From positions 511,143 through 575,142 of the forward strand of contig NZ_JAPVBG010000001.1 of the NCBI RefSeq assembly GCF_026967805.1: 64,000 bases of DNA, read 5' to 3'. Both the position numbers and the translations under genes were made by a program. The stretch is from Blastococcus sp. VKM Ac-2987. GTDB taxonomy: Bacteria > Actinomycetota > Actinomycetes > Mycobacteriales > Geodermatophilaceae. Each line of letters opens with the position of its first letter. Within the stretch, counting starts at the first letter, position 1. Below are positions 10,071-47,657 of this stretch, one piece after another. The notes under the pieces were generated by a model that saw nothing but the letters and a program-made list of their open reading frames with translations, had not been told where the DNA came from and made no database searches.

Positions 10071-10109
10071 CGCGGGTGTAGCTCAATGGTAGAGCCCCAG
10101 CCTTCCAAG
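10071..10109 (+). repeat. attL: 39-bp core, 5' half of tRNA-Gly(TCC)
   Basis: Identical over 39 bases to 47619-47657. It contains the acceptor 5' strand, the D arm and the anticodon arm through TTCCAAG, then diverges into element sequence, so the tRNA is cut just after its anticodon loop. The match extends 8 more bases leftward with one mismatch. It marks the left junction of the integrated element. Confidence 0.93.
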
Positions 10110-16818: not shown

Positions 16819-17394
16819 ATGAACAGTGAATCACTCCTTGGTTCCCACGGTCGGCGCATCGCCGAACGCATGGACGAACTAGATCGAGCTGGCCGAGCCG
16901 CGGTGGAAGACTTGCCTGACTGGCTGAGACGGCCGACTAGCAACTACCGGGGAACCCGCTGGAACGCGATTGCCTACGGCTACCAGCAGAAGGGGGTGCA
17001 GTTCTTCGACCTCCGCCGCTCCCCCTTACGGCAACTCGCCGACACGATCTGCGCAGACGACGTCCAACTCGTCAGAGTGGATAGACGGCGACCGCTCCGG
17101 ACGATCTATGCCACGAGCCACTACTCGCTCTATCTGGCGATACTCGATCAAGAGACGCTTGAGGCACGCCTCATAGATCGAGGCATTGGGCCGTCCAATC
17201 GCCCGGCCATCGAGCGGGCACTCGCTGACTTCGACTTCCTCGGGGACCTCGTAGCGGCCGACGCGACCCTGGCCGTGCCTCACACCGTGGCGCTCTTTGA
17301 GGAGGCCTGGGAGCTGGGCTGCCTAGAGCAATTGCTCGGCGATGAGGTGGCTCAGCAGATCTACCTGGTCGGCGACGGAGGCGATCACTCGTGA
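16819..17394 (+). CDS. Conserved-looking protein of unknown function in the replication operon
   Basis: 191 residues, soluble, no membrane segment. Notable stretches are DLPDWLRRPTSNYRGTRWNA, FFDLRRSPLRQLADTICADD and TSHYSLYLAILDQETLEARL. No family recognised. Its stop overlaps the start of the next gene (GTGA), so it is translationally coupled to the DnaB-N protein and is probably part of the element's replication or maintenance unit. Confidence 0.7.
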   Translation: MNSESLLGSHGRRIAERMDELDRAGRAAVEDLPDWLRRPTSNYRGTRWNAIAYGYQQKGVQFFDLRRSPLRQLADTICADDVQLVRVDRRRPLRTIYATSHYSLYLAILDQETLEARLIDRGIGPSNRPAIERALADFDFLGDLVAADATLAVPHTVALFEEAWELGCLEQLLGDEVAQQIYLVGDGGDHS

Positions 17395-17885
17395 GGCCCG
17401 CAGCCTCGACGCCGCTCCCCCATGATCGCGTCGCTGAGCGCGCCGTCGTTGGCGCATGCATCGCCAGCGCCGCAATGACAGCGGCCATTGCTGAAGGGGT
17501 CGCTCAGGACGACTTCTACGACTTGACGCTGGGACGCATGTTCGCCGCCTGCAAGAGCCTCGGCGACATCGAGCTCGCTCCCCGTCCGGACCTCATGGAG
17601 GTCGACCGCTTTCGCCAGTCGACCTACGTCCGAGTCGGTGCGGTCGCTGTGCTGACGGACACGTCCTTCATGGAGCTTGAGCAGCTGGCCCTCGATACAC
17701 CCAGCACCACGCGAGTCCACCGGTGTGCGGAGCTAGTGGTCCGCTCGGCAGAGGAACGCCGGCGACTGCTCGAGCGACTCGGCCAGCTCCGACAGCTGCA
17801 GCGCGGCCCGGCCCTGGGTCGATTCGTCCAGAGAACCACACACAACACCACCGAACGCCCTGACACAGCAGGTCTGGAGGCATGA
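17391..17885 (+). CDS. Stand-alone DnaB N-terminal-like domain protein
   Basis: 164 residues. Residues ~8-50 read LPHDRVAERAVVGACIAS, then GVAQDDFYDLTLGRMFAACKSL, matching the helical N-terminal domain of replicative DnaB helicase (P-x-(x)-AE-x-(A/S)-V-L-G ... L-x-x-(D/E)-D-F-Y). The RecA-like motor is absent. The C-terminal ~60 residues form a charged helix. It is coupled by 4-base overlaps to both neighbours (GTGA at its start, ATGA at its end). The motor may be supplied by the next gene, i.e. a split DnaB-type helicase, or the domain may contact primase or the host replisome. Confidence 0.7.
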   Translation: MRPAASTPLPHDRVAERAVVGACIASAAMTAAIAEGVAQDDFYDLTLGRMFAACKSLGDIELAPRPDLMEVDRFRQSTYVRVGAVAVLTDTSFMELEQLALDTPSTTRVHRCAELVVRSAEERRRLLERLGQLRQLQRGPALGRFVQRTTHNTTERPDTAGLEA

Positions 17886-19747
17886 CGGGGGCGGCGAACA
17901 GCACGGCGTGGGAGCGCGTCACGGGCCGGCTCACCAAGAAGGGCTCCGGTTACCTCTGCCCAGCCCACGATGACAGCAACCCGAGCCTTAGCGTGACGCC
18001 AGGCGACGGCAAAGTCCTGGTGAAGTGCCAAGCGGGCTGCACGTTCGAACAGATCACGACCGCGCTCGACCTCAGTCCTCAGGACTTCTTCGACACGCCA
18101 CTACCGCGGCAGCAAGAGCGCCCCCAAGTCGTCGCGACCTACCCGTACACCGACGAGGCCGGCGAGCTGCTCTGCAGCGTCGCCCGCTTCCAGCCCGGCC
18201 TGAAGGGTGAGAAGAAGACCTTCCGTCCTGTCGGCCCCAACGGCGAGACCGGGAAAGGTGTCCTCGACGATGTCCGTCGAGTGCTGTACCGACTCCCGGA
18301 GGTCATGGAGGCTGCGGCCAGTGGGCGCACGATCTACGTCGTCGAGGGCGAGAAGGACGCTGACGCGTTGGTACGCGCCGGCGAGGTGGCCACCTGCAAC
18401 ATCGGTGGCGCTGGGAAGTGGCGCGCGGAGTACGTGCAGTTCCTCAGGGGCGCCCAGGTAGTCATCGTCGCGGACAGGGACGGCCCGGGACGCGAACATG
18501 CACGAGACATCGCGAAGAGCCTCGAGGGTGTAGCGAAGACGGTGCGCGTCGTCGAGGCAGCTCAGGGCAAGGATGCGGCGGACCACCTGGCTCAAGACGG
18601 CACACCAGCAACGTTCGTCGAGGTGGACCTAGAGGCCAGCGCGAGCGAGTCGATATCGGGACTCCCGCCACCGTCCGACTTCGAGCCCCCGGTCGATGGG
18701 TCGTCAGATGACGAACTTCCGGCCACGTCATGGCAGCGCGTCGACCTGACCGAAGCCCTCAAAGGGCAGGGCACCCCCCAACCAGTCATCTGTGATCGTG
18801 AGGACGGTCAGCACCTGTTCTATGCAGGCAAGGTCCACGACCTCAAGTCGGAACCCGAGGCTGGCAAGACCTGGTTTGCGCTGCATGCCGTCAAGGGTGA
18901 GCTGCGCAAAGGGAACCGAGTCCTCTACCTGGACCACGAGGACGAGCCCCTGTCCATCGTTGGCAAAGTCCAGGCCCTCGGTGTTGAGGATCAGGCCATC
19001 CTGGACCGGTTCATCTACATGCAACCGACAGAACCGTTGACCCCGGCCGCGGCCGCCGCACTCGCTGTGGAGATCAGCCGCCAGCCGGAGATCACCCTTG
19101 TAGTCATCGACGGTGTCACCGACGCCATGGGTTCGAGCGACCTAGACCCCGAGGCCAATAAGGACATCCGTGCCTGGATGACGGCCGTGCCCAAAGCCAT
19201 AGCGAAATAGGGGCCAGCCGTCGTGCTCCTAGACCACGTCACCAAGAGCAAGGACACGCGTGGGCGCTATTCCATCGGAGGCCAGCACAAGCTGGCAGCC
19301 ATCGACGGGGCTTCCTACGTGCTGGAAAACATCATGCCCTTCGGTCGAGGCATGAAGGGCATGTCCAAGATCTCTGTCGTCAAGGACAAGAACGGCTGGG
19401 TCCGAAAAGGTTCAGTCCTCGGCAAGGCCGTCGGCGAGTTGCTGGTGCATGCCAATGACGATGGATCGTACGTTCACGTCCGCATCGCGACTCCAGAGGG
19501 TCTGGACACACCAGGTGAGTTTTGGCCCACAACATTGATGCAGCGCATCAGCGACTGGATTGAAGGGCAGAAGCCCCGGATTCCCAACACCGGGGACATC
19601 CTCCGCAACGTTCAAGGCAACAACAAGGCCAAGTCCGAGGCCCTGAACATCCTCGCTAAAGAGGGCTATTTGCATCGTCAGCAGGATGGTGCCGCGGTCA
19701 CTTTTGCCCTGCTCAAACCGTTCCCTGGAGGAAGGGAAAACCAATGA
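17882..19747 (+). pseudogene. Primase (CHC2 + Toprim) / RecA-like helicase, interrupted by in-frame TAG
   Basis: One reading frame, with a TAG at 19208-19210 after 442 codons. A zinc ribbon (C26-P-A-H29 ... C49-x3-C53) is followed by Toprim motifs EGEKDAD (155-161) and ADRDGPG (197-203), a RecA/RepA-like ATPase with SEPEAGKTW (323-331), and VLYLDHED (347-354). The TAG falls directly before GPAVVLLDHVTKSKD, the conserved core strand of the ATPase, so the first 442 residues alone should be inactive. The remaining 178 codons continue without a shift and end in a winged-helix-like tail (GNNKAKSEALNILAKEGYL). Most likely one substitution (for example CAG to TAG). Amber readthrough or a sequencing error are alternatives. 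Confidence 0.85.
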
Positions 19748-19748
19748 C

Positions 19749-19866
19749 CTTTCCCATACCTTTCCCATCGAGTTATCCCCAGGCTTTCCCATACCTTTCC
19801 CACTTGCGACCAGGACTTTCCCAAGCATTCCCAAGCGTTCCCTCCTCCTTTCCCCAGACCTTTCCC
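19749..19866. repeat. TTTCCC iteron-like cluster, candidate origin of replication
   Basis: TTTCCC occurs at 19750, 19761, 19785, 19796, 19817, 19849 and 19861, with ATTCCC and GTTCCC variants near 19827, 19837 and 19869. The 19-base unit CTTTCCCATACCTTTCCCA is perfectly repeated at 19749-19767 and 19784-19802. Spacing within pairs is 11 bases, one helical turn. It begins where the primase/helicase gene ends and is followed by a strong inverted repeat, a typical setting for an iteron origin. Confidence 0.6.
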
Positions 19867-19900
19867 TCGTTCCCCCCCGCCTATAGGCGGGGGAACGAGG
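19865..19900. repeat. Long inverted repeat centred on TATA, downstream of the iteron cluster
   Basis: Arms CCTCGTTCCCCC...GCC and GGCGGGGGAACGAGG pair over about 15 bases with two extra C in the left arm, around a TATA loop. It could be a terminator of the replication operon or a structural part of the origin. Confidence 0.7.
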
Positions 19901-19919
19901 AGAGAGGGGCTATCAGAGG

Positions 19920-20093
19920 ATGACTGAGAAGGAGTTGAAGAAGCTGGCGAAGGCTTGGGTTCGGACCCAGGGATGCACCTGCAGAGTGGAGGTGCGCATC
20001 GAGTCATCACCTGATGGCTTGCTCCACGCAGCGAACTGTCACCACGATGACTGGTGCCGGCTCATCCGCTCACAAGAGGCAACGAATAACTGA
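19920..20093 (+). CDS. Small Cys/His-rich protein
   Basis: 57 residues from ATG 19920 (MTEKELKKLAKAWVRTQ), with an AGAGGA stretch immediately upstream. It contains C-T-C near residue 20 and CHHDDWC at 40-46, a possible small zinc site. A basic amphipathic helix leads. It sits directly after the origin-like repeats, so a DNA-binding or copy-control role is possible. No family recognised. Confidence 0.5.
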   Translation: MTEKELKKLAKAWVRTQGCTCRVEVRIESSPDGLLHAANCHHDDWCRLIRSQEATNN

Positions 20094-20102
20094 GCCACGG
20101 AC

Positions 20103-20378
20103 TCAGGACAGGAAGACCTGCAGCGTCACGCTCACCGCGGCCAGGAGCGCTGCGACCGCCGTCAAGAGTGCAGAGATCTTCTGCCATCGCAACGTGGTCC
20201 TCTGCTCCTGGAGGGTGTCGAGCTGAGCCTGTGCGACCAGGCCCTCCTTGACCTTGGAGATCCAGGTGTCGAAACGCTCACCGTTCCCCTGGTAGTTGAG
20301 GATGTACTCCGCGATGTCTGCGTTGGTGATCCCCTCGGGGACCGGGTCGCCTGAGAAGGGCTCACGTACCTGGCTCAT
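20103..20378 (-). CDS. Small single-pass membrane protein
   Basis: 91 residues from ATG 20378 (MSQVREPFSGDPVPEG). A soluble N-terminal part with an amphipathic helix (NADIAEYILNYQGNGERFDT) precedes a coiled stretch and a C-terminal transmembrane segment (ISALLTAVAALLAAVSVTLQ). The layout recalls tail-anchored small proteins or phage holin-like proteins, but the function is not recognisable. Confidence 0.6.
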   Translation of the reverse strand: MSQVREPFSGDPVPEGITNADIAEYILNYQGNGERFDTWISKVKEGLVAQAQLDTLQEQRTTLRWQKISALLTAVAALLAAVSVTLQVFLS

Positions 20379-20417
20379 GGCTATGACATCGGCAGTCTGT
20401 TCGGTCGATCGAACCAT

Positions 20418-20845
20418 CCAGACGAGACAGGGCCACGGCCCGCGTCGAGCCGCTGTCGCTAAGCAACACCACTACCGACACCATGTGTGGTGTCTCGACC
20501 ACGCAGGGGGGTGGGGTGAAACTCCAAAGCTTCTCGTTACGCCCCAGACCTGTGCCCTGTGTCTACTTTCTGTACAACCTTTGGCCGTTTTTTCCTACGC
20601 TTTTCGCTTTCCCAGCGTGTCTTTTTGTCCCAGCTCGCGCCCGACGCGCCGGCCAGTTGCACCGCCCTGGAGCAAGCGAAACAGCAAGAACCTGCAAGTC
20701 ACAGGCCATGAGCCCTGCCTGGGTGGGGACACCCCGGAGAGCCCTGCCCGCCGACGGAGACCACAGGAGTGCGGAATATACGATGACAAAAGTCGCCGAA
20801 AAATCTCCGTGACGCACGTCGGGCCGGCTCCTGGTGCCGCACAGT
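20418..20845. other. ~430-base intergenic region with AT-richer patches
   Basis: No convincing gene. It holds a pyrimidine-rich stretch (20545-20640, with TTTGGCCGTTTTTTCC and CTTTTTGTCCC) unlike the surrounding DNA. This could be a regulatory or origin-related segment. No clear repeat. Confidence 0.4.
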
Positions 20846-21550
20846 TCAGGCGCTCAGCAGCGGTGGAGCCAGCTCTCCACCCCAGCTGTAGCTCCACAGA
20901 ACCGGATCGATGTCCCTGATGCCCGCAGCAAGGACGTCCAGGCACCGTAGGACCTTGGCCTCGTCCAAGTGTGCGACATAGCTCCAGAAGCCGTCATCCT
21001 CGCTGAAGCGAAGCCGCTCGTCGGCAGTCCGTAGCTGACCGCGCTGGTGCGTCAGGATGTTCCGGAGCTCAAAGATCTCGTGCACCGCCAGCGGCCGGGC
21101 CTCGATCCCCAGGAGCCTGCAGGCCTCCCGCACCTTGCGGAACTGAGGGAACGAACCGTCCAGTGATCGGGGATGCCCGTGGGCGTTGCAGACCTCGGCG
21201 TACGCCTTGATCACGTAGACCTCGTATGCGGTCACTGCATCACGCACCACCGCGGCCAGGGTCATCCAGTGCCAGTCCCCCGGCGACATGCCGATGTGGT
21301 CCTCGAAGATGTCGATCGGATCCGGGCTGTCCTCATGGCCAGGTGATTCCAGGATGGCCCGCCACTCAGCTTGGAACCGCTCCTCCATCCACCGGAGGGT
21401 CAGATGCAGGTAAGCCCGCTGGTCGCGGCTTGTCAGCTGCCACTCGTCATAAGCCCGGGTGACGTGTCCACAGCCGTCCGCCCGTGCATACCACCCCAGC
21501 TCGTGGGCCTCCTCCAAGGTCAGGGGTCGCCACGGTCCCTCCTCGTCCAT
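20846..21550 (-). CDS. HEPN-like protein, possible RNase/abortive-infection factor
   Basis: 234 residues from ATG 21550 (MDEEGPWRPLTLEEAHELG). The second half is all-helical and carries FELRNILTHQRGQL, an R-N-x3-H motif (Rx4H), the catalytic signature of HEPN ribonucleases, preceded by a helix that starts TAYEVYVIKAYAEVC. HEPN proteins often act as toxins or in phage defence by cleaving RNA. No antitoxin partner such as an MNT gene is adjacent, and the neighbour is a membrane protein on the same strand. Assignment rests on the motif and helical pattern. Confidence 0.6.
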   Translation of the reverse strand: MDEEGPWRPLTLEEAHELGWYARADGCGHVTRAYDEWQLTSRDQRAYLHLTLRWMEERFQAEWRAILESPGHEDSPDPIDIFEDHIGMSPGDWHWMTLAAVVRDAVTAYEVYVIKAYAEVCNAHGHPRSLDGSFPQFRKVREACRLLGIEARPLAVHEIFELRNILTHQRGQLRTADERLRFSEDDGFWSYVAHLDEAKVLRCLDVLAAGIRDIDPVLWSYSWGGELAPPLLSA

Positions 21551-24093: not shown

Positions 24094-26004
24094 ATGGCTG
24101 CTAAGCCAATCAAGATCACCATCCTCGCCGACGACCAGACATCCAAGTCGTTCAAATCCGCTGAAGAGAATGCCGGCAGGTTCAGCGGCACCATGGAGAA
24201 GGCCTCAACTGTCAGCACCAAAGCACTCGGCGCCATCGGTGCCGGTGCTGGCATTGCGGCAAGCGCCATGGCGGGCTTTGCAAAGGCGTTAGACGTCGGT
24301 GCTGCGACCGACAAGATGACAGCACAGCTCGGTCTAACGGCTGAGGAGTCAGGCCGCTACGGGAAGATCGCTGGTGACCTATATACCCAGGCATACGGCG
24401 ACTCCATGGACGAAGTGAACTCAGCAATTGGTGCTGTCCGCACTTCCATCGAAGGCATGGCGACTGCTACGTCGAGCGATTTGCAAGAAGCGAGTGTGAA
24501 TGCCATCAACCTCGCGAAGATCTTCGACATGGACGTGAGCGAGTCGGCGAGCGCAGCTGGCAACATCATCCGCACCGGCCTTGCAGACAATGCAACTGAA
24601 GCCTTCGATTTGATGACGGTCGGCCTGCAGAAAGTGCCCGCGGCAATGCGTGGCGATCTGCTTGAGGCGACTAATGAATACGGCACTTACCTAGATTCAC
24701 TTGGCCTCACTGGCCAGGAGTCCTTCGGTCTTTTGGTCGAGGGCGCCAAAGGCGGAGCCATCCAACTCGACAAGACCGGTGACGCACTAAAAGAGTTCAC
24801 CATCCGCTCAACGGACATGAGCACCGGCAGTGTTGCTGCCTATGAAGCTCTTGGCCTCAATGCCCAAGAGATGAGCAACAAGATCCTCGCCGGTGGTGAG
24901 ACTGCACGAGGCGGCTTTGATCAGATCGTTGAGGGCCTTGTGAATATCAAGGACCCAACAGAACAAGCCAACACGGCCATTGCACTCTTCGGCACGCCAC
25001 TTGAAGACATCGGCACAAACAAGATTCCTGCGTTCCTTGAGAGTCTCGACAACGCCGAGACCGCGCTTGATGATGTGAGCGGTGCTGCAAAGGAAGCTGG
25101 TGACGCATTTAACGAGAACGCGAAGACCAAGATCGAGGAGTGGAAACGCAAATTGGAGACCAGCGTCGTGAACTTTATTGGCGGCCATGTCATTCCCAAA
25201 ATCGAAAGCATGACCCAGTCGCTGCGGGAGAACGAGCCCGTGTGGGACGCAGTCAAGATCGTCGCCGTTGGAGCATTGGGTGTTCTCGGTCTGGCGATGA
25301 CTGTCACTGCCGCCCAGGTTGTCATCGGTTGGGCTGCCATGGGGATTGCCAGCATGGTCAATGCCGTGAAGATGGCCGGCGCCTGGATCGTGGCCATGGG
25401 GCCGATCGGCTGGGCGATTGCTGCGATAGCCGGAATCGCCATCGTCGTCTACAAAAATTGGGACACGATTGTCGAGAAGACCGGTCAAGCTTGGGGCTGG
25501 GTCAGTGACAAGATTTCCGGGTTTATCGAGCACTTCAAGACCTTGCCGGTCAAGATTGCCTTCATCGCTCTTACCCTGTGGGACGGCATCAAAGATTCCT
25601 TCAGGTCGGCGCTCAACTGGGTCATCGACAAGTGGAATGGGTTCAGCCTGACCGCCAAGGTTCCTGACAATACGATCACGTCAGCATTGGGTATTGCCGG
25701 AAAGGGCTTCGCGTTCGAGACTCCCAACATTCCTCGCTTCGCTTCTGGTGGTGTTGCTCCGGGTGGCGTGCCGATCATCGTCGGCGAGAGAGGGCCGGAA
25801 CTCGTAACCCTCGGTGAGACGTCGCGTGTGTACAACGCACACGACACCGCGAGTCTTGCAGGTGGGTCGAACCGTCCCGTAGAGATCCACAACGCGTTCA
25901 ACATCACGGGCCCAGATCCGCAGGCAATCGCTCGGCAGATCGAGGATGCGCTTGAGGAGAGTTTCGAAGAGAGCCTGCGCCTACTAACCATGGGCGCTCG
26001 GTAG
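24094..26004 (+). CDS. Phage tail tape measure protein
   Basis: 636 residues. The N-terminus is an Ala/Ser-rich amphipathic region (GAIGAGAGIAASAMAGFAKA). A TP901-type tape measure region follows (GLTAEESGRYGKIAGDLYTQ ... MTVGLQKVPAAMRGDLLEAT), then three hydrophobic segments (about residues 390-455), Trp-rich helices (NWDTIVEKTGQAWGWVSDKI) and a C-terminal SGGVAPGGVPIIVGERGPEL motif typical of tape measure C-termini. Length sets the tail length in siphophages, and 636 residues is short. The gene appears intact. Its base composition is visibly less GC-rich than the flanks, pointing to phage origin. Confidence 0.9.
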   Translation: MAAKPIKITILADDQTSKSFKSAEENAGRFSGTMEKASTVSTKALGAIGAGAGIAASAMAGFAKALDVGAATDKMTAQLGLTAEESGRYGKIAGDLYTQAYGDSMDEVNSAIGAVRTSIEGMATATSSDLQEASVNAINLAKIFDMDVSESASAAGNIIRTGLADNATEAFDLMTVGLQKVPAAMRGDLLEATNEYGTYLDSLGLTGQESFGLLVEGAKGGAIQLDKTGDALKEFTIRSTDMSTGSVAAYEALGLNAQEMSNKILAGGETARGGFDQIVEGLVNIKDPTEQANTAIALFGTPLEDIGTNKIPAFLESLDNAETALDDVSGAAKEAGDAFNENAKTKIEEWKRKLETSVVNFIGGHVIPKIESMTQSLRENEPVWDAVKIVAVGALGVLGLAMTVTAAQVVIGWAAMGIASMVNAVKMAGAWIVAMGPIGWAIAAIAGIAIVVYKNWDTIVEKTGQAWGWVSDKISGFIEHFKTLPVKIAFIALTLWDGIKDSFRSALNWVIDKWNGFSLTAKVPDNTITSALGIAGKGFAFETPNIPRFASGGVAPGGVPIIVGERGPELVTLGETSRVYNAHDTASLAGGSNRPVEIHNAFNITGPDPQAIARQIEDALEESFEESLRLLTMGAR

Positions 26005-29802: not shown

Positions 29803-29954
29803 GGCCTAGTTATCGGCACCGGTCCGCGCCGCTAGCCGTACCAAGGGCGACGGCCTGGGCTCAACTGCCTCAGGAGTGCCGCTACTCCCCCGGGGTGACG
29901 GCGGGCGCGTCACGAGCCGCCGCGTCGTATGACTCACTTACCCTGCGCTCGACT

Positions 29955-32714
29955 ATGAGCGAGAAACCACAGCAACAGCTCCCTGCCGAGCAGCGGGCTC
30001 GTGTGCTGATCGACGCGCAGCTCACCGCCGCAGGGTGGATGGTGCAGAACCGCAAGGCCATGAACCTTTTTGCCGGCCAGGGCGTAGCGGTGCGCGAGAC
30101 CACCATGGCTAAGGGACACGGCCGCGTCGACTACCTGCTGTACGTCGACAAGGCGGCGGTCGGAGTCATCGAAGCGAAGCCCGAGGGGACCACCCTGTCT
30201 GGCGTCGAGTGGCAGTCCGCCATGTACGCCACCGGGCTACCTGCGGACGTACGCCTCAAGGCACTCACGGTCGACGGGCGCCTGCCCTTCATCTTCGAAG
30301 CCAGCGGGACGGAGACCCACTTCACCAACGGGTACGACCCGTCACCGCGGGCGAGGCGCATCTTCGCCTTCCCGAAGCCCAGCACGCTGGCGCGGATCCG
30401 ACGGAGCGCCGAGACGGACCCGGATCTGCCGACGTGGCGAGCGAAGGTCCAGCGGATGCCCGAGCTGGATGTCGCGCCGCTACGGCCGGCGCAGATCCAG
30501 GCCATCAGTGGCATCGAGCGCAGCCTGGCCGAGCAGCGATATGACCGGTCGCTCGTGCAGATGGCGACTGGGGCCGGCAAGACCTACACCGCGGTAACCA
30601 GCTGCTACCGCCTGCTGAAGCACGCTGGCTTTCAGCGGGTGCTCTTCCTGGTGGACCGCAACAACCTCGCCGACCAGACACTCGCTGAGTTCCAGAACTA
30701 CAGGACGCCCGACGACGGTCGACGCTTCACGGAGATTTACAACGTCGACAAGCTCACCAGCGCGGGCACGCTCGCCAGCAGCCACGTCGTCATCTCGACG
30801 ATCCAGCGGGTTTACAGCTTCCTCAACAACAAGCCAGTCGGCCAGGACGACGACCCGGATCTCGACAACTTCGTGCCCGACCAGCCTGTGCCTGCGGTCT
30901 ACAACCCCGCCATGCCGCCCGAGGCGTTCGACCTCGTGATCGTCGATGAGGCGCACCGGTCGATCTACGGGGTCTGGCAGAACGTCCTCCGCTACTTCGA
31001 CGCCCACGTCGTCGGCCTGACCGCAACGCCCGGGAAGGCGACGTTCGGCTTCTTCCGCCAGAACCTCGTTAGTGAGTACACGTACCCGCAGTCGGTCGCC
31101 GACGGGGTCAACGTCGACTTCGACATCTACAAGATCCGAACGAAGATCACCCAGGACGGCTCGCGCATCGACGCCGGCACCGTGGTCCCCACGGTCGACC
31201 GTCGGACCCGCGAGGAGAAGCTCGTCGCACTCGACGACGACCTCGAGTACACGGGCAAGCAGCTCGATCGAGCGGTCACCTCGAAGAACCAGATCCGCTT
31301 GGTCCTCGACACCTTCCGCGACAAGCTCTTCACGGAGATCTTTCCGGGGCGTTCGACGGTGCCCAAGACCTTGATCTTCTGCAAGGACGACGCTCACGCC
31401 GAGGAAGTTGTCACCACGGTGCGGGAGGTCTTCGGCAAGGGCAACGACTTCGCAGCGAAGATTACCTATGCCGCAACAGACCCCAAGGGCCACCTGCAGC
31501 GCTTCCGGACCTCGGCCTCGCTGCGCGTTGCCGTGACGGTCGACATGATCGCCACAGGCACGGACGTGAAGCCGCTCGAGTGTGTCTTCTTCATGCGCGA
31601 CGTGCGATCCGGCCAGTACTTCGAACAGATGAAGGGCCGTGGCGCTCGCACCATCCCACCAGCTGACTTCCAGGCCGTCACACCGGACGCTGAGGCCAAG
31701 ACACGCTTCGTCCTCGTGGATGCCATCGGTGTGACCGAGCATGAGTTCGTGGACCCGCCGCTCAACCGGGAGAAGGGCGTCAGCCTTCAGCAGCTTCTGG
31801 GCAAGGTGGCGTCGCTGACCATCACCGAGTCCGAGACCGCGACCCTGGCATCACGGCTGGCCGCCCTTGAACTGCAGGTCACACCGGCGGAGCGCCAGGA
31901 ACTCGACGCCGTGGCCGGCCAGCCCCTTCGAGGAGTGATCCGCGGGCTGGTGGACGCGGTTGACCCAGACACCCAAGCCAAGGTCGCTGAGGGTGCCGCC
32001 GATCCTCAAGCTGCGATCCAAGAGCTGGTCGACAAGGCCATCGAGCCGCTGGCGGCCAACCCGGAGCTGCGGAACCGGATTCTGGAACTGCGAAGGGCTC
32101 ACGACCGGGTAGTCGACGAGATCAGCATCGACGTGCTGCTTGACGCGCACGGCGTCGTGGACACCTCGCGTGCGCAGTCCATCGTCGAGTCGTGGAAGCA
32201 GTACCTCGAAGACCACCGCGACGAAATCACCGCCATCCAGCTGATGGGCGAGGCCAAGGAGCGCCGCATCTCGTTCAGTGACATCAAGGAACTGGCCGAT
32301 CGGATCAGTCGGCCACCACATAGCTGGACGCCCGAGCTCATCTGGGCTGCGTACGAGGCAGTCGAGAAGAGTCGAGTTCGGCGCAGCGAGCGACACACGT
32401 TGACGGATCTCGTCTCGCTGCTGCGCTACACCCTGGGCGACGACTCTGAGCTGGTTCCCTACAGCGATCGCATACGCGAGCGCTACACCAACTGGCTAGC
32501 TCAGCAGGAGCAGGCAGGTACACAGTTCACAACGAGTGAGAGATGGTGGCTCGACCGGATGGCTGAGGTCGTGGCTACCTCCGCGGGCGTAAGCCCGGAC
32601 GACTTGGAGTCGGCCCCCTTCACCGAGCGGGGCGGCGTCGATGGCGCTCTACGCGACCTGGGCGATCATGCTGGCACTCTCATCGAGACCTTGAACGAGG
32701 AGCTGACGGCGTGA
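29955..32714 (+). CDS. hsdR: Type I restriction endonuclease R subunit
   Basis: 919 residues from ATG 29955, the start that gives a normal HsdR N-terminus (MSEKPQQQLPAEQRARVLID). The nuclease core is RVDYLLYVDKAAVGVIEAK, with catalytic D59 and E73-A-K75. The SF2 translocase has Walker A ATGAGKT (204-210), DEAH (331-334), TATP (356-359), a helicase C region RVAVTVDMIATGTDVKPLEC and an arginine-finger region MKGRGART. The C-terminal helical domain binds HsdM. It cuts unmodified DNA far from the recognition site after ATP-driven translocation. It overlaps hsdS by 4 bases. Confidence 0.97.
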   Translation: MSEKPQQQLPAEQRARVLIDAQLTAAGWMVQNRKAMNLFAGQGVAVRETTMAKGHGRVDYLLYVDKAAVGVIEAKPEGTTLSGVEWQSAMYATGLPADVRLKALTVDGRLPFIFEASGTETHFTNGYDPSPRARRIFAFPKPSTLARIRRSAETDPDLPTWRAKVQRMPELDVAPLRPAQIQAISGIERSLAEQRYDRSLVQMATGAGKTYTAVTSCYRLLKHAGFQRVLFLVDRNNLADQTLAEFQNYRTPDDGRRFTEIYNVDKLTSAGTLASSHVVISTIQRVYSFLNNKPVGQDDDPDLDNFVPDQPVPAVYNPAMPPEAFDLVIVDEAHRSIYGVWQNVLRYFDAHVVGLTATPGKATFGFFRQNLVSEYTYPQSVADGVNVDFDIYKIRTKITQDGSRIDAGTVVPTVDRRTREEKLVALDDDLEYTGKQLDRAVTSKNQIRLVLDTFRDKLFTEIFPGRSTVPKTLIFCKDDAHAEEVVTTVREVFGKGNDFAAKITYAATDPKGHLQRFRTSASLRVAVTVDMIATGTDVKPLECVFFMRDVRSGQYFEQMKGRGARTIPPADFQAVTPDAEAKTRFVLVDAIGVTEHEFVDPPLNREKGVSLQQLLGKVASLTITESETATLASRLAALELQVTPAERQELDAVAGQPLRGVIRGLVDAVDPDTQAKVAEGAADPQAAIQELVDKAIEPLAANPELRNRILELRRAHDRVVDEISIDVLLDAHGVVDTSRAQSIVESWKQYLEDHRDEITAIQLMGEAKERRISFSDIKELADRISRPPHSWTPELIWAAYEAVEKSRVRRSERHTLTDLVSLLRYTLGDDSELVPYSDRIRERYTNWLAQQEQAGTQFTTSERWWLDRMAEVVATSAGVSPDDLESAPFTERGGVDGALRDLGDHAGTLIETLNEELTA

Positions 32715-33922
32715 GTACTCCCCTCGATGAGTGGTCAACGGCTCCACTTGGTGAACTTGTTGACATTCTTGACTATGCCCGGATCCCAGTCAGCGCAAAG
32801 GAGCGAGAGAGTCGCCTGGGCGATGTTCCGTACTACGGCGCTACTGGCAGGGTCGGTTTCATCGACAGGCCTCTATACAACGAAGAGTTGGTGCTCTTGG
32901 GAGAGGACGGTGTGCAGTTTTTTGATTCGGACAAGCCCAAGGCCTACCTAATCAATGGCCCCTCGTGGGTGAACAACCACGCACATGTACTCCGAGCCCA
33001 CCGCCAACAGATTGATCACCGCTATCTTTGCCACTACTTGAACCACTTCAATTACAGTGGCTATGCGAACGGGACAACTCGGCTCAAGCTGACTCAGGCA
33101 GCGATGCGTCGGATGCCTATCCAGTACCCGGACCTGGCAGAGCAACGCCGGATCATCCTGGAGCTTGAGGACCACTTGTCGCGACTCGAAGCCGCGCAGG
33201 CCTACATCAACACCGGTGCGGCGAGAGCTGACACGCTCGTAGCGGCCACTCTCGGGGCGGACATTGCGCTGGAACGAGCTCCGACTTCCCGACTGGTGCA
33301 TTTGCTTGCTGAACCGCTAGCAAATGGACGATCTGTCACCACAAGAGAGGGGGGATACCCGGTCCTACGGCTGACCGCCTTGACCGCAGGAGGCGTCGAC
33401 CTCTCTCAACGTAAAGGCGGCGCCTGGACCAGCAAGGAAGCCAGCCCGTTCAACGTCGTTCTTGGGGACTTTCTTGTCTCCAGAGGGAACGGGAGCCTGC
33501 GTCTCGTTGCGCGCGGCGCCCTTGTTCGCGACGAGCCAGATGGCGTCGCCTTCCCTGACACGGTGATCCGTGTGCGTGTCGATAGGGACGCCCTTGATCC
33601 CGAGTACCTGAACCTGATCTGGAACTCGCGAGTAGTAAGGCGACAGATTGAGGGGATGGCTCGCACCACTGCGGGCATCTATAAGGTGAACCAGGGGCAC
33701 CTAGAAAGTGTTGAGATCCCGGTCCCCGCCTACAGCGATCAACGAAGGCTCGTCACACTTGCTTCGCGCGCCTTCGAAGCCTCCGCTGGACTGGGGGGTA
33801 TGGCTACTCAACTCTCGCGCAGAGTCAATGCGCTGCGACGGTCACTGCGGACAGCCGCCTTCAGTGGTCGCCTTTTACAATCATCGTCGACGGAGTCAAC
33901 GAAGGAGATGGCGGGTGTCTGA
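32711..33922 (+). CDS. hsdS: Type I restriction-modification specificity subunit S
   Basis: 403 residues from GTG 32711. Two target-recognition domains are present. The first is residues ~5-150 (PLGELVDILDYARIPVS, ending in RRMPIQYPDLAEQRRI). The second is ~190-350 (RLVHLLAEPLANGRSVTTRE, ending in GIYKVNQGHLESVEIPVP). Each is followed by a conserved helical spacer (LELEDHLSRLEAAQAYIN and LASRAFEASAGL). The TRDs set the bipartite DNA target, which cannot be predicted here. Gene order R-S-M is less common than R-M-S. It overlaps hsdM by 8 bases. Confidence 0.95.
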   Translation: MSTPLDEWSTAPLGELVDILDYARIPVSAKERESRLGDVPYYGATGRVGFIDRPLYNEELVLLGEDGVQFFDSDKPKAYLINGPSWVNNHAHVLRAHRQQIDHRYLCHYLNHFNYSGYANGTTRLKLTQAAMRRMPIQYPDLAEQRRIILELEDHLSRLEAAQAYINTGAARADTLVAATLGADIALERAPTSRLVHLLAEPLANGRSVTTREGGYPVLRLTALTAGGVDLSQRKGGAWTSKEASPFNVVLGDFLVSRGNGSLRLVARGALVRDEPDGVAFPDTVIRVRVDRDALDPEYLNLIWNSRVVRRQIEGMARTTAGIYKVNQGHLESVEIPVPAYSDQRRLVTLASRAFEASAGLGGMATQLSRRVNALRRSLRTAAFSGRLLQSSSTESTKEMAGV

Positions 33923-35414
33923 TTCTCGTCGGCTGGTCGAGAAGCTTTGGTCCTACTGCAATGTGCTTCGTGACGACGGTGTCGGAACCATCGAGTACAC
34001 AGAGCAGCTGACCTACTTGCTGTTCCTCAAGATGGCTCACGAACGCGAGACTCGTCCGTTGAAGCCCGAGTGCATCGTTCCGGCGGACTGCTCCTGGCAG
34101 CGCCTGCTCGACGCCGATGGGGATGACCTCGAGGTCACGTACCGGCACATCCTTGAGAAGCTGAGCCGCCAGACCGGCGTACTGGGCACCATCTTCCGCA
34201 AGGCCCAGAACCGCATCCAGGACCCCGCCAAGCTGAAGCGCCTTGTCGTCGATCTAATCGACAAGGAGAACTGGTCGGCTACCGGGACCGACATCAAGGG
34301 CGACGCCTATGAGGAGCTGCTGTCCAAGGGCGCAGAGGACATCAAGTCAGGCGCCGGTCAGTACTTCACCCCGCGGCCACTCATTTCGGCGATGGTCGAC
34401 TGCCTTCAGCCGACCATCACCGACACCGTCACCGACCCCGCGGCCGGCACTGGCGGATTCCTCCTCGCCGCCCACGAGTACGCCGCGCGCCATGCAGAGT
34501 CGCTGACGCCAACTGAGCGCGAGCACCTGCGTGACGGCTTCGTCCATGGCGTTGAGCTGGTTGACGGCACCGCACGCCTCGCGGCGATGAACCTGATCCT
34601 GCATGGCATCGGCAGCCCGAACGGCGACAGCCTGATCGAGGTTCGTGACTCCCTCGCCGGTGAGCCGCCGAGTAAGCGCTGGTCCGTCGTACTGTCCAAC
34701 CCGCCGTTCGGGCGCAAGTCCGCCCTCGCCATGGTCGGCGCCGATGGACGCGAGGTTCGCGAGGACCGGGAGATCGAGCGCAAGGACTTCATTGCGACCA
34801 CCTCCAACAAGCAGCTCAACTTCCTGCAGCACATCTTCACGATCCTCGACATCAACGGTCGCGGCGCCGTCGTGCTCCCGGACAACGTGCTCTTCGAGGG
34901 CGGTGCGGGCGAAAAGCTAAGGCGCCGGCTCCTTCAGAGCTTCGACTTCCACACGATGCTGCGGCTCCCGACCGGCATCTTCTACGCCCAGGGCGTCAAG
35001 GCGAACGTGCTCTTCTTCGACAAGAAGCCCGCAGCTGAGCGTCCCTGGACCGAGCGCCTCTGGGTCTACGACCTTCGCACCAACCAGCACTTCACGCTCA
35101 AGCAGAACCAGCTTCGTCGGCAGCACCTCGACGAGTTTGTGAGCTGCTATCGCCCTGGAGAGCCACGTTCGGAGCGCGTCGAGTCTGAGCGGTTCAAGTC
35201 CTTCACCTACGACGAACTGGTGGCGCGGGACAAGGCTAACCTCGACATCACGTGGCTGCGTGATGAGTCGCTGGAGGACACCGACAACCTGCCGGCACCC
35301 GAGATCATCGCGCGCGAGATCGTTGAGGACCTCACTGCGGCACTGGCGGAATTCGAGGCCGTGGCGGCGGCACTGGAGCTTGAGTCGAGCTTCGCCGCCG
35401 ACTCGACGGGATGA
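33915..35414 (+). CDS. hsdM: Type I DNA methyltransferase M subunit
   Basis: 499 residues from GTG 33915 (VSDSRRLVEKLWSYCNVLRD). This start is preferred over longer ones because those overlap hsdS widely. HsdM N-terminal helical domain, then QYFTPRPLISAMV (149-161), SAM-binding DPAAGTGGFL (174-183) and the catalytic NPPF (262-265) of an N6-adenine methylase. C-terminal helices contact HsdS. It protects host DNA and forms M2S and R2M2S complexes. Coupled by overlaps to hsdS and to the following gene. Confidence 0.97.
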   Translation: MSDSRRLVEKLWSYCNVLRDDGVGTIEYTEQLTYLLFLKMAHERETRPLKPECIVPADCSWQRLLDADGDDLEVTYRHILEKLSRQTGVLGTIFRKAQNRIQDPAKLKRLVVDLIDKENWSATGTDIKGDAYEELLSKGAEDIKSGAGQYFTPRPLISAMVDCLQPTITDTVTDPAAGTGGFLLAAHEYAARHAESLTPTEREHLRDGFVHGVELVDGTARLAAMNLILHGIGSPNGDSLIEVRDSLAGEPPSKRWSVVLSNPPFGRKSALAMVGADGREVREDREIERKDFIATTSNKQLNFLQHIFTILDINGRGAVVLPDNVLFEGGAGEKLRRRLLQSFDFHTMLRLPTGIFYAQGVKANVLFFDKKPAAERPWTERLWVYDLRTNQHFTLKQNQLRRQHLDEFVSCYRPGEPRSERVESERFKSFTYDELVARDKANLDITWLRDESLEDTDNLPAPEIIAREIVEDLTAALAEFEAVAAALELESSFAADSTG

Positions 35415-36511
35415 GTGACGAGCTGTGGGTTGTCCGAGCGGGTGAGAAGGCAAGGTTCGTCGACGAGTTCATCGCCGAGTCCTTCGTCGCCATCAGCTTC
35501 GTTGACTTCGCGCCCGAGGACCTGAGCCGCACCGACGAGGCAGCGGTCAGAGCGCGCATTGCTTCGCCCGCGGACCAGACCTACGCCAACCAAGTGATCT
35601 CCTTCGCCTACCGGATGCAGGTAGGCGACCTCGTGGTCGTCCCGCGAGTGGTGGGGCGCCATAAGGACTACCTCGTCGCACGCATCGTTGGTCCGTACGA
35701 GCACGTCGCGGATGCACCGGCGTCCGGCCCTCACCGTCGGGCCGTCGAGTGGCTGGGTCGCTTCGAGAAAGATGCGCTAACCAGGACCGCGATCAACACT
35801 CTGGGCGCCTTCCTGACGATCTTCAGGCCTACCGCTGTTGAGGCGGAACTGCGCGGCTTGTTGACTGCACTGTCTCCGCTGGAGGCGCAGGCACCAAGGG
35901 TCGCAGAGGCCGTCCCACGTCCTACGGCGGCGCTGGAACAGCCCACCGCCGCTGCCACCCCCGTAGCAGTAGCGCGCCCGTCCCTCCCCTTGCCTGAAGC
36001 GCTGCTGGACATCCATCTCGACACCAAGGGAAGAGCGCGCATCACCAGCCGCCACCCGGCGCTCCTGATGGAGCAGACACCCCGCCACGTTGATCCGAGA
36101 GAGGACTGGCGGGATGTGCCTGGCATCTACGTCCTAACCGGCACCGACGTACAGCAGTCGATCACTCGCACCGGAAACGAACGAACACTCACCTCTACGC
36201 TGATCGTCAAGCCTTGGGCCTACGTCGGTCTGAGCGAGGACTTCCGTGGACGGATCAGCAGCCACCGGCTGTCCAAGCCCGAGTGGCGCCGGGCCTTGCT
36301 GGTTCGTGCCAACGGCCTTCCATTCACCAGCGACGACATCAAGTACTTGGAGCAAAGAGTCCATGCTGTGCTCGAGGAGACGGGCGAGGTCACGCTGCCT
36401 CAAACGACGCCCCGCGGAAACCGATCCGCACAGCCGCGCGACGTGCGGATGCTCGACGACTGTGCGGACACGGTCGTGGCTGTTCTTCGACTGACTGGCA
36501 CGTTGATCTAA
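35411..36511 (+). CDS. EVE/PUA-like domain plus GIY-YIG-like nuclease, fourth gene of the type I RM operon
   Basis: 366 residues. Its ATG overlaps the hsdM stop (ATGA), so it is translated with the RM genes. The N-terminal ~110 residues (LWVVRAGEKARFVDEF, then FVAISFVDF, YRMQVGDLVVVPRVVGR, LVARIVGPYEHV) resemble the EVE/PUA-like domains used in restriction systems to sense modified bases. After a Pro/Ala linker the C-terminal part has GIYVLTG, AYVGLSEDFRGRISSH, IKYLEQRVHAVLEETG and TTPRG, a divergent GIY-YIG layout. The second motif has AYVG in place of YIG, and the conserved glutamate can be E in YLEQR. It could restrict modified DNA that escapes HsdR. Confidence 0.65.
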   Translation: MSDELWVVRAGEKARFVDEFIAESFVAISFVDFAPEDLSRTDEAAVRARIASPADQTYANQVISFAYRMQVGDLVVVPRVVGRHKDYLVARIVGPYEHVADAPASGPHRRAVEWLGRFEKDALTRTAINTLGAFLTIFRPTAVEAELRGLLTALSPLEAQAPRVAEAVPRPTAALEQPTAAATPVAVARPSLPLPEALLDIHLDTKGRARITSRHPALLMEQTPRHVDPREDWRDVPGIYVLTGTDVQQSITRTGNERTLTSTLIVKPWAYVGLSEDFRGRISSHRLSKPEWRRALLVRANGLPFTSDDIKYLEQRVHAVLEETGEVTLPQTTPRGNRSAQPRDVRMLDDCADTVVAVLRLTGTLI

Positions 36512-40859: not shown

Positions 40860-43541
40860 GTGGCTACCTCGTCAGTCAAGATGCGCGGTTCGGCAGCTTC
40901 GGCTCGGGACTATTACAAAGACGAAGAAGCCACCCTTGGGTATTACAAAGGTGGTTCGGAAAAGGACGGGTTCGACACTGTCTGGGGCGAATTGGGCCGC
41001 GAACTCGGGCTAGAGCACGGCATCACTGACGCCCAGTGGGGCGAGCTGTACGACGGCGCGTGGAACGGCGAGCGCCTTACTCGGCGTACTGGCTACCAAA
41101 AGGTGGTCCATAAGGACGGCACGGTGGAGGTGGTGGCTCATCGCACGCCCGGCTTCGACGTGGGCTTCTTTGCGCCCAAGAGCATCTCTGAGGCATACGC
41201 CAAAGCCGCTACCGCCGAACACGCCCAAGCCATCGCAGAGGCAGTGTTCAGTGCTGCAGAAGTGGCTTGGAAGGAAGGCGTAGAGGGTCACGTTCGTCTG
41301 GCCCGCGTTCCGGACGGTAGCGGCGGGACCAAGCCTGTGACGGCGAAGCTGGCGGCCACCCCAGTCATGCAATACACCGCTCGTCCAACCCAGGAGACCC
41401 TGGACCGAGGCGCCCCTGCGGACCCTCACCTACACGTCCACGTTCCAACCTTCTCGCTCTGCAAGGTCGGAGACCGCTGGTACACCGCTGATGAGGCTGG
41501 CATCAAGCGCACCGCGGAGTACCGGGACCAGATATTCATGGGCGAGTTGGCTCGCCGGATGGAGGCGCTGGGCTACTCGATGGACTACGCAGTGTTCGAC
41601 GAAGCCCGCGCTGGCAGAGTCACCTGGGAGCTAGCTGGCTCGGATGCGGCCCTCCGGAAGCACTGGTCCTCGAACCACGAACGCACCTTCGCGTTGGCCC
41701 GCGCCTTCGAGCTGGGGCACGGTCGACCTCCGACGGACCGCGAACTGGGATCCCTGATGAAGGTGACGAAGGGCAAGAAGGCCGACAAGGAGATGGATTC
41801 GAACCCCACCCGAGAACGGTGGATCATCGACGCCCGAGCTGCTGGCTTCGACGTGTCTCCGATCCTTCCTGGGGATCCTGTGGAAGCACTCGAGAACCGC
41901 TACGCGGAACTGAGGGTGCGTCTTATGGGTGCCAAGGGCCTCGTCCGGGAGGATGCCGCGTTCGGGGCAGAGTCGATCCGTCCGGCCATCGCCCGCTGTG
42001 CTGTGGGCCTGGGCTTCACCCGTGAGGAGCTGGGGGCCTACGAGGCAGTGCTGAAGGAAGACCTGGTGGTCCTTCGTCCTGCTGTTGATCCCAACCACGT
42101 GCTCTACACGACCAAGCGTCACATCGCGCTCGAAGACTTCATTGTCAAGGCACGCCAGGACAAGGCGCGCTTCAAGATGGCTGCCCCTGATGAGGCTTCT
42201 GTTGCGCTCGCAATCTCGCGCCAGGACGTCGAGCTTGATACTGAGCAGCGGAATGCCGTAGCCGCTGCGTGTTCGGGTTCTGGCTGGGTTCACATCGAGG
42301 GCTCAGCTGGATCGGGGAAGTCGAGCAGCAGCCGCGCGATTGTCGATGCTCACCGGATCTCAAAGACTGCCGATCAGGTGGTGGCTGTCTCGGTCGCTGC
42401 CAAGACGGCCAACGACTACGGGCGCAAGCTCGAGGCCGACCGCTGGGGTTCGGTTGAGTCTGTGCTGCGCCAAATCGAGCGCGGACAGATCAAGCCCACC
42501 GACAAGACGCTCTGGATGGTGGACGAAGCCGCAATGATGGACACCCACCGCATGGCGGCACTCATCAAGGCAGCTGGCCGCGGTCGAGTCGTTCTTGTGG
42601 GCGACTCTGCCCAGCTGACTCCCATCGGGGCTGCTGGCTGGTACGCAGAATCGGTCGAGAGCCACGGATCGGCCAAGCTCACCCGCGTCTTCCGTCAGCG
42701 TGACGAGAACGACGTGGCGTCCTACCAGAAGCTCCGAGACGGCAACGGGGCCGAGGCAGTGGCGTCTATGGCCGAGCGAGGCCGTGTGCATGTCTCCAAG
42801 GACTCATCAGAGCGCCTGGGCCGTGTCATGGGCGACTACAAGGAGCTGCGGGCCAAGGGCTACAAGGCTGGCCAGGTGCGCCAGGTCATCGAGACCTCGA
42901 ACCACGACGTGGACACCATGAACCGCTTTGTCCAGCGGGACCGCATTGAGCGCAATGAGGTCCACCCTGACGGCTTCCGGGTCGAAGACACAGAGCAGGG
43001 CCGGCGCTGGGAGCTCCACCAGGGCGATCAGGTCATTTTCCTTCGCAGCTACTACGAGCGCGGGGTCGATCCCATCCGCAACGGCTCTACCGGCTTGATC
43101 CGCAACATCGACCGTCACGGCAACGCCGTAATCGATCTAGGCACGAGAACCGTAAGCATCGGACTACAAGAGGCCGAGCGTGTTCAGCCTGTGGGTCTGG
43201 CCTATGCCCAGCACGCGGCCAAGCTCCAGGGCTCCGAGGTCGAGCACGTCCAGGTGCTTCCGTCCCTCATCACCGCGAACGCCAACTCGGGCTACAGCCA
43301 GGTCACGCGGGCCAAGCACCAGGCGCACGTCTACCTCAGCCAGGAAGACGCACCCGAGGCCGATCCCGTGGAGGCCCTGGGCCAGCGGTGGTCGACACCG
43401 GCCGAGAAGCGCAGCGCCCGCAGCTACCTGCACGAGCCCGAGCCGATCAAGGTCGAGACCAGGCACGAGAACATCTACGAACGGATCATGGCCGACCGGG
43501 CACGCGAACAGGCGCGGGAACCGGTTGGTATGGAGCGTTAA
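40860..43541 (+). CDS. MobF-family relaxase-helicase (TrwC/TraA-like)
   Basis: 893 residues from GTG 40860 with AGGAGG upstream. The relaxase domain has DYYK at 17-20 and LGYYKG at 26-31 with candidate catalytic tyrosines, FDVGFFAPKSISEAYAKA (99-116), and the metal-binding three-histidine motif HLHVHV (His190, 192, 194). The C-terminal RecD-like SF1 helicase has Walker A GSAGSGKS (481-488), VDEA (554-557) and VVLVGDSAQLTPIGAAG. It nicks oriT, stays bound to the 5' end and unwinds the transferred strand. It is the key transfer protein of the element and is directly followed by the coupling protein gene. Confidence 0.93.
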   Translation: MATSSVKMRGSAASARDYYKDEEATLGYYKGGSEKDGFDTVWGELGRELGLEHGITDAQWGELYDGAWNGERLTRRTGYQKVVHKDGTVEVVAHRTPGFDVGFFAPKSISEAYAKAATAEHAQAIAEAVFSAAEVAWKEGVEGHVRLARVPDGSGGTKPVTAKLAATPVMQYTARPTQETLDRGAPADPHLHVHVPTFSLCKVGDRWYTADEAGIKRTAEYRDQIFMGELARRMEALGYSMDYAVFDEARAGRVTWELAGSDAALRKHWSSNHERTFALARAFELGHGRPPTDRELGSLMKVTKGKKADKEMDSNPTRERWIIDARAAGFDVSPILPGDPVEALENRYAELRVRLMGAKGLVREDAAFGAESIRPAIARCAVGLGFTREELGAYEAVLKEDLVVLRPAVDPNHVLYTTKRHIALEDFIVKARQDKARFKMAAPDEASVALAISRQDVELDTEQRNAVAAACSGSGWVHIEGSAGSGKSSSSRAIVDAHRISKTADQVVAVSVAAKTANDYGRKLEADRWGSVESVLRQIERGQIKPTDKTLWMVDEAAMMDTHRMAALIKAAGRGRVVLVGDSAQLTPIGAAGWYAESVESHGSAKLTRVFRQRDENDVASYQKLRDGNGAEAVASMAERGRVHVSKDSSERLGRVMGDYKELRAKGYKAGQVRQVIETSNHDVDTMNRFVQRDRIERNEVHPDGFRVEDTEQGRRWELHQGDQVIFLRSYYERGVDPIRNGSTGLIRNIDRHGNAVIDLGTRTVSIGLQEAERVQPVGLAYAQHAAKLQGSEVEHVQVLPSLITANANSGYSQVTRAKHQAHVYLSQEDAPEADPVEALGQRWSTPAEKRSARSYLHEPEPIKVETRHENIYERIMADRAREQAREPVGMER

Positions 43542-43628
43542 CGCTGGGTCATGTTCAGGCCGCCGTGGTTGACGGACGACGGCGGCTCGGTTCTAGTTCG
43601 GGCACGGACCCCGACGAGAGGCCAGGCC

Positions 43629-46317: not shown

Positions 46318-46495
46318 TCCACTCCTTAGCTGTGGAGAAGTAGCCGAACGCCTGGGGACAGGTGAGCGGTTCGTTAGGCGTCTTGTTGCTGAAAGGCGAC
46401 TGCGCTACGTAAAGGTGGGGAAGTACGTCAAGTTCCGCCGTGAAGACGTCGAGGCGTGGATCGCTGCGCAGATGGTTGACCCCGTGGAGGACTGA
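46247..46495 (+). CDS. xis: Excisionase-like HTH protein
   Basis: 82 residues from GTG 46247. The first ~27 are Pro/Ser-rich and the true start may be later. Core: LLSCGEVAERLGTGERFVRR, LVAERRLRYVKVGKYVKFRR and EDVEAWIAAQ, the AlpA/excisionase winged HTH. Its stop shares one base with the integrase start (TGATG), so both are co-translated. It probably directs integrase toward excision. Confidence 0.8.
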   Translation: MPSSPLPSPDKPGRHASSPTPSADPLLSCGEVAERLGTGERFVRRLVAERRLRYVKVGKYVKFRREDVEAWIAAQMVDPVED

Positions 46496-47618: not shown

Positions 47619-47657
47619 CGCGGGTGTAGCTCAATGGTAGAGCCCCAGCCTTCCAAG
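47619..47657 (+). repeat. attR: 39-bp core in the 5' half of tRNA-Gly(TCC)
   Basis: Perfect copy of 10071-10109, ending after the anticodon loop. Here the core continues into chromosomal tRNA 3' sequence, so this is the right junction. Confidence 0.93.

Follow-up and report, generated by a model that had tools for sequence, protein, structure and literature searches.

In a 64,000-nucleotide stretch of the Blastococcus sp. VKM Ac-2987 genome (contig NZ_JAPVBG010000001.1, positions 511,143 to 575,142; hereafter the window, numbered from its first letter), the block at 19748–19900 very probably serves an integrated mobile element as its replication origin. The block lies directly behind the gene of the helicase that would be its initiator, and we propose that the winged helix of this helicase recognises it. 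Judged from the layout of its repeats and from comparison with relatives, the block would represent a family of origins that follow the gene of their initiator helicase directly or, in some cases, lie within it.

The block holds seven copies of TTTCCC on the + strand (starts at 19750, 19761, 19785, 19796, 19817, 19849 and 19861), a number reached in none of 20,000 dinucleotide shuffles of 19748–19900, and it is the densest 6-mer cluster anywhere in the window. Four of these copies lie in a 19-nt direct repeat, present as a perfect pair offset by 35 nt, with two more degenerate copies at 32 and 33 nt. The array runs into an imperfect inverted repeat (left arm 19 nt, right arm 17 nt, with a 2-C bulge), which as single-stranded DNA has a folding energy of −17.4 kcal/mol (z −5.9) and whose apex, GCCTATAGGC, contains CCTATA. 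The original prediction had called the seven copies, the perfect 19-base repeat at 35-base spacing, the 11-base spacing inside pairs and the position directly after a primase/helicase gene, and each of these holds on exact counting and measurement, the Toprim and RecA/AAA_25 gene ending at 19747; its strong 36-base inverted repeat is real as well, apart from the bulge. Several short direct repeats, regularly spaced and in helical phase, next to an initiator gene are the hallmarks of an iteron-type origin; they are present in the window and in relatives too.

We collected relatives by using the helicase part as a query for loci in whole genomes, IMG/VR, phages and plasmids, which gave 190 non-redundant helicase loci, or 61 groups at a 60% identity cut-off; the helicase is encoded on more than 450 IMG/VR stretches. 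No close relative above ~42% identity was found for the window helicase in these searches, a DNA-level phage search with the 11.5-kb region gave zero matches, a same-genus search for the helicase returned only Toprim-level relatives, and a scan of genome contigs gave one distant Toprim relative and nothing else. The densest 7-mer of ~5 kb around each helicase was scored if it lay within −350 to +450 of the stop codon. A unique densest 7-mer repeat was located at the helicase stop in 150 of the 190 loci, where ~34 (~18%) would be expected, and the positional signal was seen in 40 of the 61 groups, with 34 different words (binomial p 3e-16). Nearly all well-matched relatives carry 4–10 copies of an element-specific short word right after the helicase stop (for example CTCGTCC, CCACGCC, CCGCGAC, CGTGTCC, ACCCTTT, GCGTTGT, GTGCCCC or TGACCGA), and in several loci the array overlaps the last helicase codons. 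The commonest spacings between iterons were 10–11 nt (238 of 686 cases), and spacings of 7–9, ~25, ~36 and 47 nt recur.

The palindrome is shared as well. A hairpin above the 95th percentile of shuffles was detected in 139 of 175 relatives, and in 131 of these 175 loci the iteron core stands inverted in both palindrome arms. The apex in relatives has TATA, TATAA, TTTA or TCTAA between a preceding C run and a following G run; no 6-mer is more enriched across 152 origin regions than CCTATA, which occurs in 33 loci against 0.8 expected. The layout, phased direct iterons followed by a palindrome with a fixed type of apex, therefore persists while the word varies by element. The original prediction had looked to relatives for the same repeat, and what distant relatives keep is the architecture, with a changed repeat word. 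How often the word changes differs among groups: a large group of aquatic viral contigs (L166–L269) has TTGACCGA iterons, a near-constant origin with a CCCCCTATAAGGGGG apex and little iteron change, unlike the L108–L133 group, in which iteron switches are frequent.

Two natural plasmids carry the same unit. The circular pKRAD02 (12.9 kb) encodes ParA, a ribbon-helix-helix protein, a resolvase, a helix-turn-helix protein and the helicase, whose gene has the array at its 3' end; the proteins scanned include no other Pfam Rep family. The natural plasmid p-XQ-29-C likewise has the helicase with a repeat array, and no known Rep family among its genes scanned. Together, the positional signal, the common layout and these plasmids support the proposal, already made in the original prediction, that the block is an origin.

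Which protein would read the iterons is suggested by covariation. Iterons were anchored by a fixed rule of our own, by which 97 of 175 loci could be anchored, and these were collapsed to 57 representatives; 334 alignment columns were then scanned for association with each iteron base, with N1–N4 denoting T, C, G and T in TCGTCCC and residues numbered as in L039. The best columns all lie in the winged helix: 290 for N1 (z 5.5), 293 for N2 (6.9), 304 for N3 (7.3) and 300 for N4 (6.8). Columns of the helicase domain, which served as a control for shared ancestry, stayed below the winged-helix columns (means 0 to 0.6, maxima 3.4 to 5.9). Fisher tests were also run on the association of iteron bases with winged-helix residues, and permutation within clades gave p 2e-4 for each of the four base-residue associations. 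Among disjoint nearest pairs, all nine that differ at N2 differ at 293 and all 13 that differ at N4 differ at 300; over all four bases the pairs point in the same direction (p 0.01 to 0.06). L109 and L118 share 249 of 251 helicase-domain residues, whereas several winged-helix residues differ, including recognition residues, and their iterons are CCTTTCCC and AGTTCCC, respectively. In the AlphaFold2 model, residues 290, 293, 300 and 304 map to helix 2 and to the beginning of helix 3, the recognition helix. The window agrees with the trend, having Leu293, Ser304 and Asn300 with TT at N2N3. The C-terminal winged helix of the helicase is thus the likely iteron reader, and the covariation points to the helicase, rather than the neighbouring protein with a DnaB-like N-terminal domain, as the binder.

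Among the other explanations for the block, the one that survives best, though in our judgement still quite unlikely, is that the repeats are operators of a transcriptional regulator, or autoregulatory sites of the helicase, and not an origin. Iteron-like arrays can serve as operators, autoregulation is frequent among initiators, and the predicted winged helix resembles MarR/BlaI-type domains among PDB fold matches; however, the array occupies the 3' end of the gene rather than a promoter, a search of 19500–20500 for sigma-70-like promoters found none, the palindrome with its C-run/TATA/G-run apex is retained while the iterons change, and on the plasmids the unit is the sole recognisable replication gene among the genes scanned. 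We attach very little probability to a partition centromere (parS/parC-like) to which a separate protein binds: the array stands behind the helicase gene rather than ParA genes, the ParA of pKRAD02 is ~5 kb or more away, no ParA is seen next to the window array, and the covariation is with the helicase's own domain, even if direct-repeat arrays are typical of centromeres too, the winged-helix centromere binders TubR and AspA are among the PDB fold matches, and pKRAD02 does encode ParA and a ribbon-helix-helix protein. A transcription terminator at the palindrome, with C-rich repeats that arise from base composition, is just as hard to credit, since, despite a GC-rich hairpin directly behind the gene, no T tract follows it on either strand, a terminator scan makes no call, the repeats go beyond dinucleotide shuffles, and their sequence covaries with protein residues, which is unexpected from composition. 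We rejected an intrinsic terminator for this lack of a T tract, an Rfam RNA for want of any match above the gathering score in 19000–21000, and also a promoter; besides its proposed part in an origin, the palindrome may have an additional terminator role.

Several observations weigh against the proposed origin and its recognition by the winged helix. The window helicase gene contains an in-frame amber codon ahead of the winged helix, so the helicase is probably inactive and, barring suppression of the stop or a sequencing error, probably does not fire the window origin; the window copy may be a relic. The arms of the window hairpin carry GTTCCC and not TTTCCC. Across relatives, 20 of the 61 groups lack a clear signal, in some because the copies are degenerate and in others with none seen, and in a mycobacterial clade the array is found at the opposite, 5' end of the helicase gene. 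As to the covariation, the four positions had partly been noticed by eye ahead of the unbiased scan, the anchoring follows our own rule and covers only the 97 of 175 loci, and a prediction stated in advance for new loci, which yielded one strict case (L318), failed: TCGTCC was predicted and GCGTCC found, N1 being wrong and N2–N4 right. Read after the fact, Glu293 and Arg304 go with CG in the new loci L318, L324, L428, L432, L447 and probably L446.

On the reading of the block as an origin, the covariation and the predicted fold suggest that the RecA-fold helicase uses its C-terminal winged helix to bind the helically phased iterons. Copies of the protein would assemble both on the direct iterons and on the inverted ones in the palindrome arms; the GC-clamped, TATA-like apex might then melt or extrude, the helicase ring could load there and the Toprim domain would prime. 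Since the iteron sequence and the recognition residues of the winged helix change together, each element may fire only its own origin. We lean somewhat towards a wider proposal, in which phages, integrated elements and plasmids share a widespread, so far unrecognised replicon class whose RecA-fold helicase is its own origin-recognition protein. Four winged-helix residues would read four iteron bases by a simple code, so that a few substitutions yield orthogonal origins, while the GC-clamped TATA-like hairpin apex stays constant as the site of melting or priming. As part of this four-residue reading, Glu293 with Arg304 would specify CG, a hydrophobic residue with a non-Arg residue TT, Ala300 T and Arg300 C. 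If true, this would name origin and initiator at once for hundreds of poorly characterised phages and elements, offer, as a natural data set, ~60 independent pairs of initiator and origin whose specificity was changed by a few residues, make the escape from cross-talk between origin and initiator directly testable, and find practical use in small sets of mutually compatible replicons for actinobacteria.

The reading frame of the window helicase (Table 1) is continuous except for the single TAG, because of which gene callers and lists of open reading frames show the gene as two pieces. Pfam matches are confined to Toprim and AAA_25, with no D5_N match, structure matches give the helicase part a RecA/KaiC fold, and the AlphaFold2 model has a predicted local distance difference test (pLDDT) score of 88.6.

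Table 1 Features of the predicted origin and its helicase gene in the window
Feature	Position	Strand	Basis or remark
Small protein with DnaB-like helicase N-terminal domain	17391..17885	+	Pfam PF00772, E 9e-7; overlaps start of helicase gene
Primase-helicase gene: Toprim, RecA-fold AAA_25 helicase, C-terminal winged helix; 621 codons	17882..19747	+	Pfam, AlphaFold2
In-frame amber codon TAG, codon 443	19208..19210	+	Truncates helicase ahead of winged helix
Predicted winged-helix region of helicase C-terminus	19529..19711	+	AlphaFold2 models; PDB matches are winged-helix domains
Codons of predicted recognition helix alpha-3	19622..19660	+	Two of the four covarying positions; other two in alpha-2 just upstream
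Predicted replication origin (iteron array and palindrome)	19748..19900	+	Repeat layout, comparison of relatives
First 19-nt repeat, CTTTCCCATACCTTTCCCA	19749..19767	+	Two iterons 11 nt apart
Second 19-nt repeat, identical to first	19784..19802	+	Two iterons 11 nt apart
Fifth TTTCCC iteron	19817..19822	+	Then degenerate ATTCCC (19827) and GTTCCC (19837), in ~10-nt steps
Sixth and seventh TTTCCC iterons (19849, 19861)	19849..19866	+	Seventh enters hairpin base
Palindrome	19865..19900	.	Arms with inverted iteron-like GTTCCCC word
Palindrome apex, CCTATAGG	19880..19887	.	CCTATA tops 6-mer enrichment in origin regions of relatives

The general logic of such an origin is already known from P4 alpha, SaPI Rep, Cch2 and pWTY27, and it is the helicase class and the readable specificity that look new. 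The original prediction had called the origin undescribed, which stands for the helicase family in the literature searched and falls for the layout, known from SaPI Rep and Cch2 and similar in P4 alpha and pWTY27; we found no description of the window-type helicase family as an origin-recognising initiator, subscription literature being outside the scope of the search. SaPI Rep and SCCmec Cch2 are initiator helicases with a C-terminal domain for recognition of element-specific iterons, which lie immediately behind the helicase gene (PMC7581432). Element-specific iterons directly downstream of the helicase gene are also what we see, but Cch and Cch2 represent other helicase families (DUF927, Primase_Cterm), the window helicase has the RecA/KaiC-type AAA_25 fold, and, unlike SaPI Rep and Cch2, most members here combine iterons with a palindrome of conserved apex. 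Membership in the SaPI Rep/Cch2 family was rejected, as Pfam finds neither DUF927 nor Primase_Cterm in the window protein. RepA of RSF1010 is a RecA-fold hexameric helicase. The RSF1010 (IncQ) origin has iterons, together with the hairpins ssiA and ssiB used for priming (PMC4234260); there, RepC binds the iterons, RepA unwinds and RepB' primes, each as a separate protein, whereas here the three functions appear to be fused. A PDB profile search with the helicase matched RecA, RadA and KaiC, and RSF1010 RepA was absent from the sequence and fold lists, an absence that is uninformative.

Phage P4 alpha joins a Toprim primase and a helicase to a C-terminal winged helix, through which it binds origin repeats beside its own gene (PMC4234260). 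Functions are arranged in this order in the window protein too, with Toprim and winged helix in one chain, but its helicase is of the AAA_25/RecA fold and that of P4 belongs to superfamily 3 (SF3, D5-type). The helicase parts of P4 and of the window type are not known to be homologous. Crenarchaeal pRN1 ORF904 is a primase-helicase with a C-terminal winged helix; just downstream of its own gene lies an essential stem-loop, variable in sequence but preserved in structure, which it recognises by a C-terminal domain (PMC4234260). It differs in having an SF3 helicase and an archaeo-eukaryotic primase, without iterons. Covariation of an initiator with its origin has been described for PLE RepA (PMC8263062).

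In the Streptomyces plasmid pWTY27, 300 bp of non-coding DNA adjacent to repA hold direct repeats (TTCCCAC/GTGGGAAC) and a long inverted repeat. The RepA footprint covers the two arms of this inverted repeat but not its loop, and the repAB/iteron locus is the minimal replicon (PMC3583192). The pWTY27 relative pSM17B has a D5/SF3 (P4-type) RepA and a separate Prim-Pol, with no BLAST similarity to the window helicase. Judging by pSM17B, we rejected pWTY27 as a direct member; its helicase would be of the SF3 type and unrelated, so that the layout seems to have emerged in at least two classes of helicase. Plasmid pSM17B (L463) shows this layout too, with TTCCGG repeats and a long palindrome behind the D5/SF3 helicase gene, and its deposited linear record resembles a head-to-tail dimer of a ~14.7-kb unit.

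The integrated element itself spans ~37.5 kb and is bounded by exact 39-bp copies, in direct orientation, of the tRNA-Gly 5' half (10071–10109 and 47619–47657), with a tyrosine integrase gene at 46495–47583. It also carries type I restriction-modification genes (HsdR-, HsdS- and HsdM-like) followed by a gene for a PDC-S02/S14-like protein (29895–36511), and genes for a TrwC-type relaxase with a helicase domain and a TraG/TraD-like coupling protein (40860–45326). Tail tape-measure genes are present at 24094–26004, besides the phage-type replication genes, despite both of which the element looks mobilisable. Among the relatives, iteron palindromes at the 5' end of the helicase gene occur in the mycobacterial-type clade (L026, L030, L031, L033, L034 and L036), L034 having several GGTTCCCGGTTCC palindromes. 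Microcystis phage MinS1 (L049), deposited with a cyanobacterial host, encodes an Lsr2-family protein together with the actinobacterial-type replicon, and its host assignment may merit checking.
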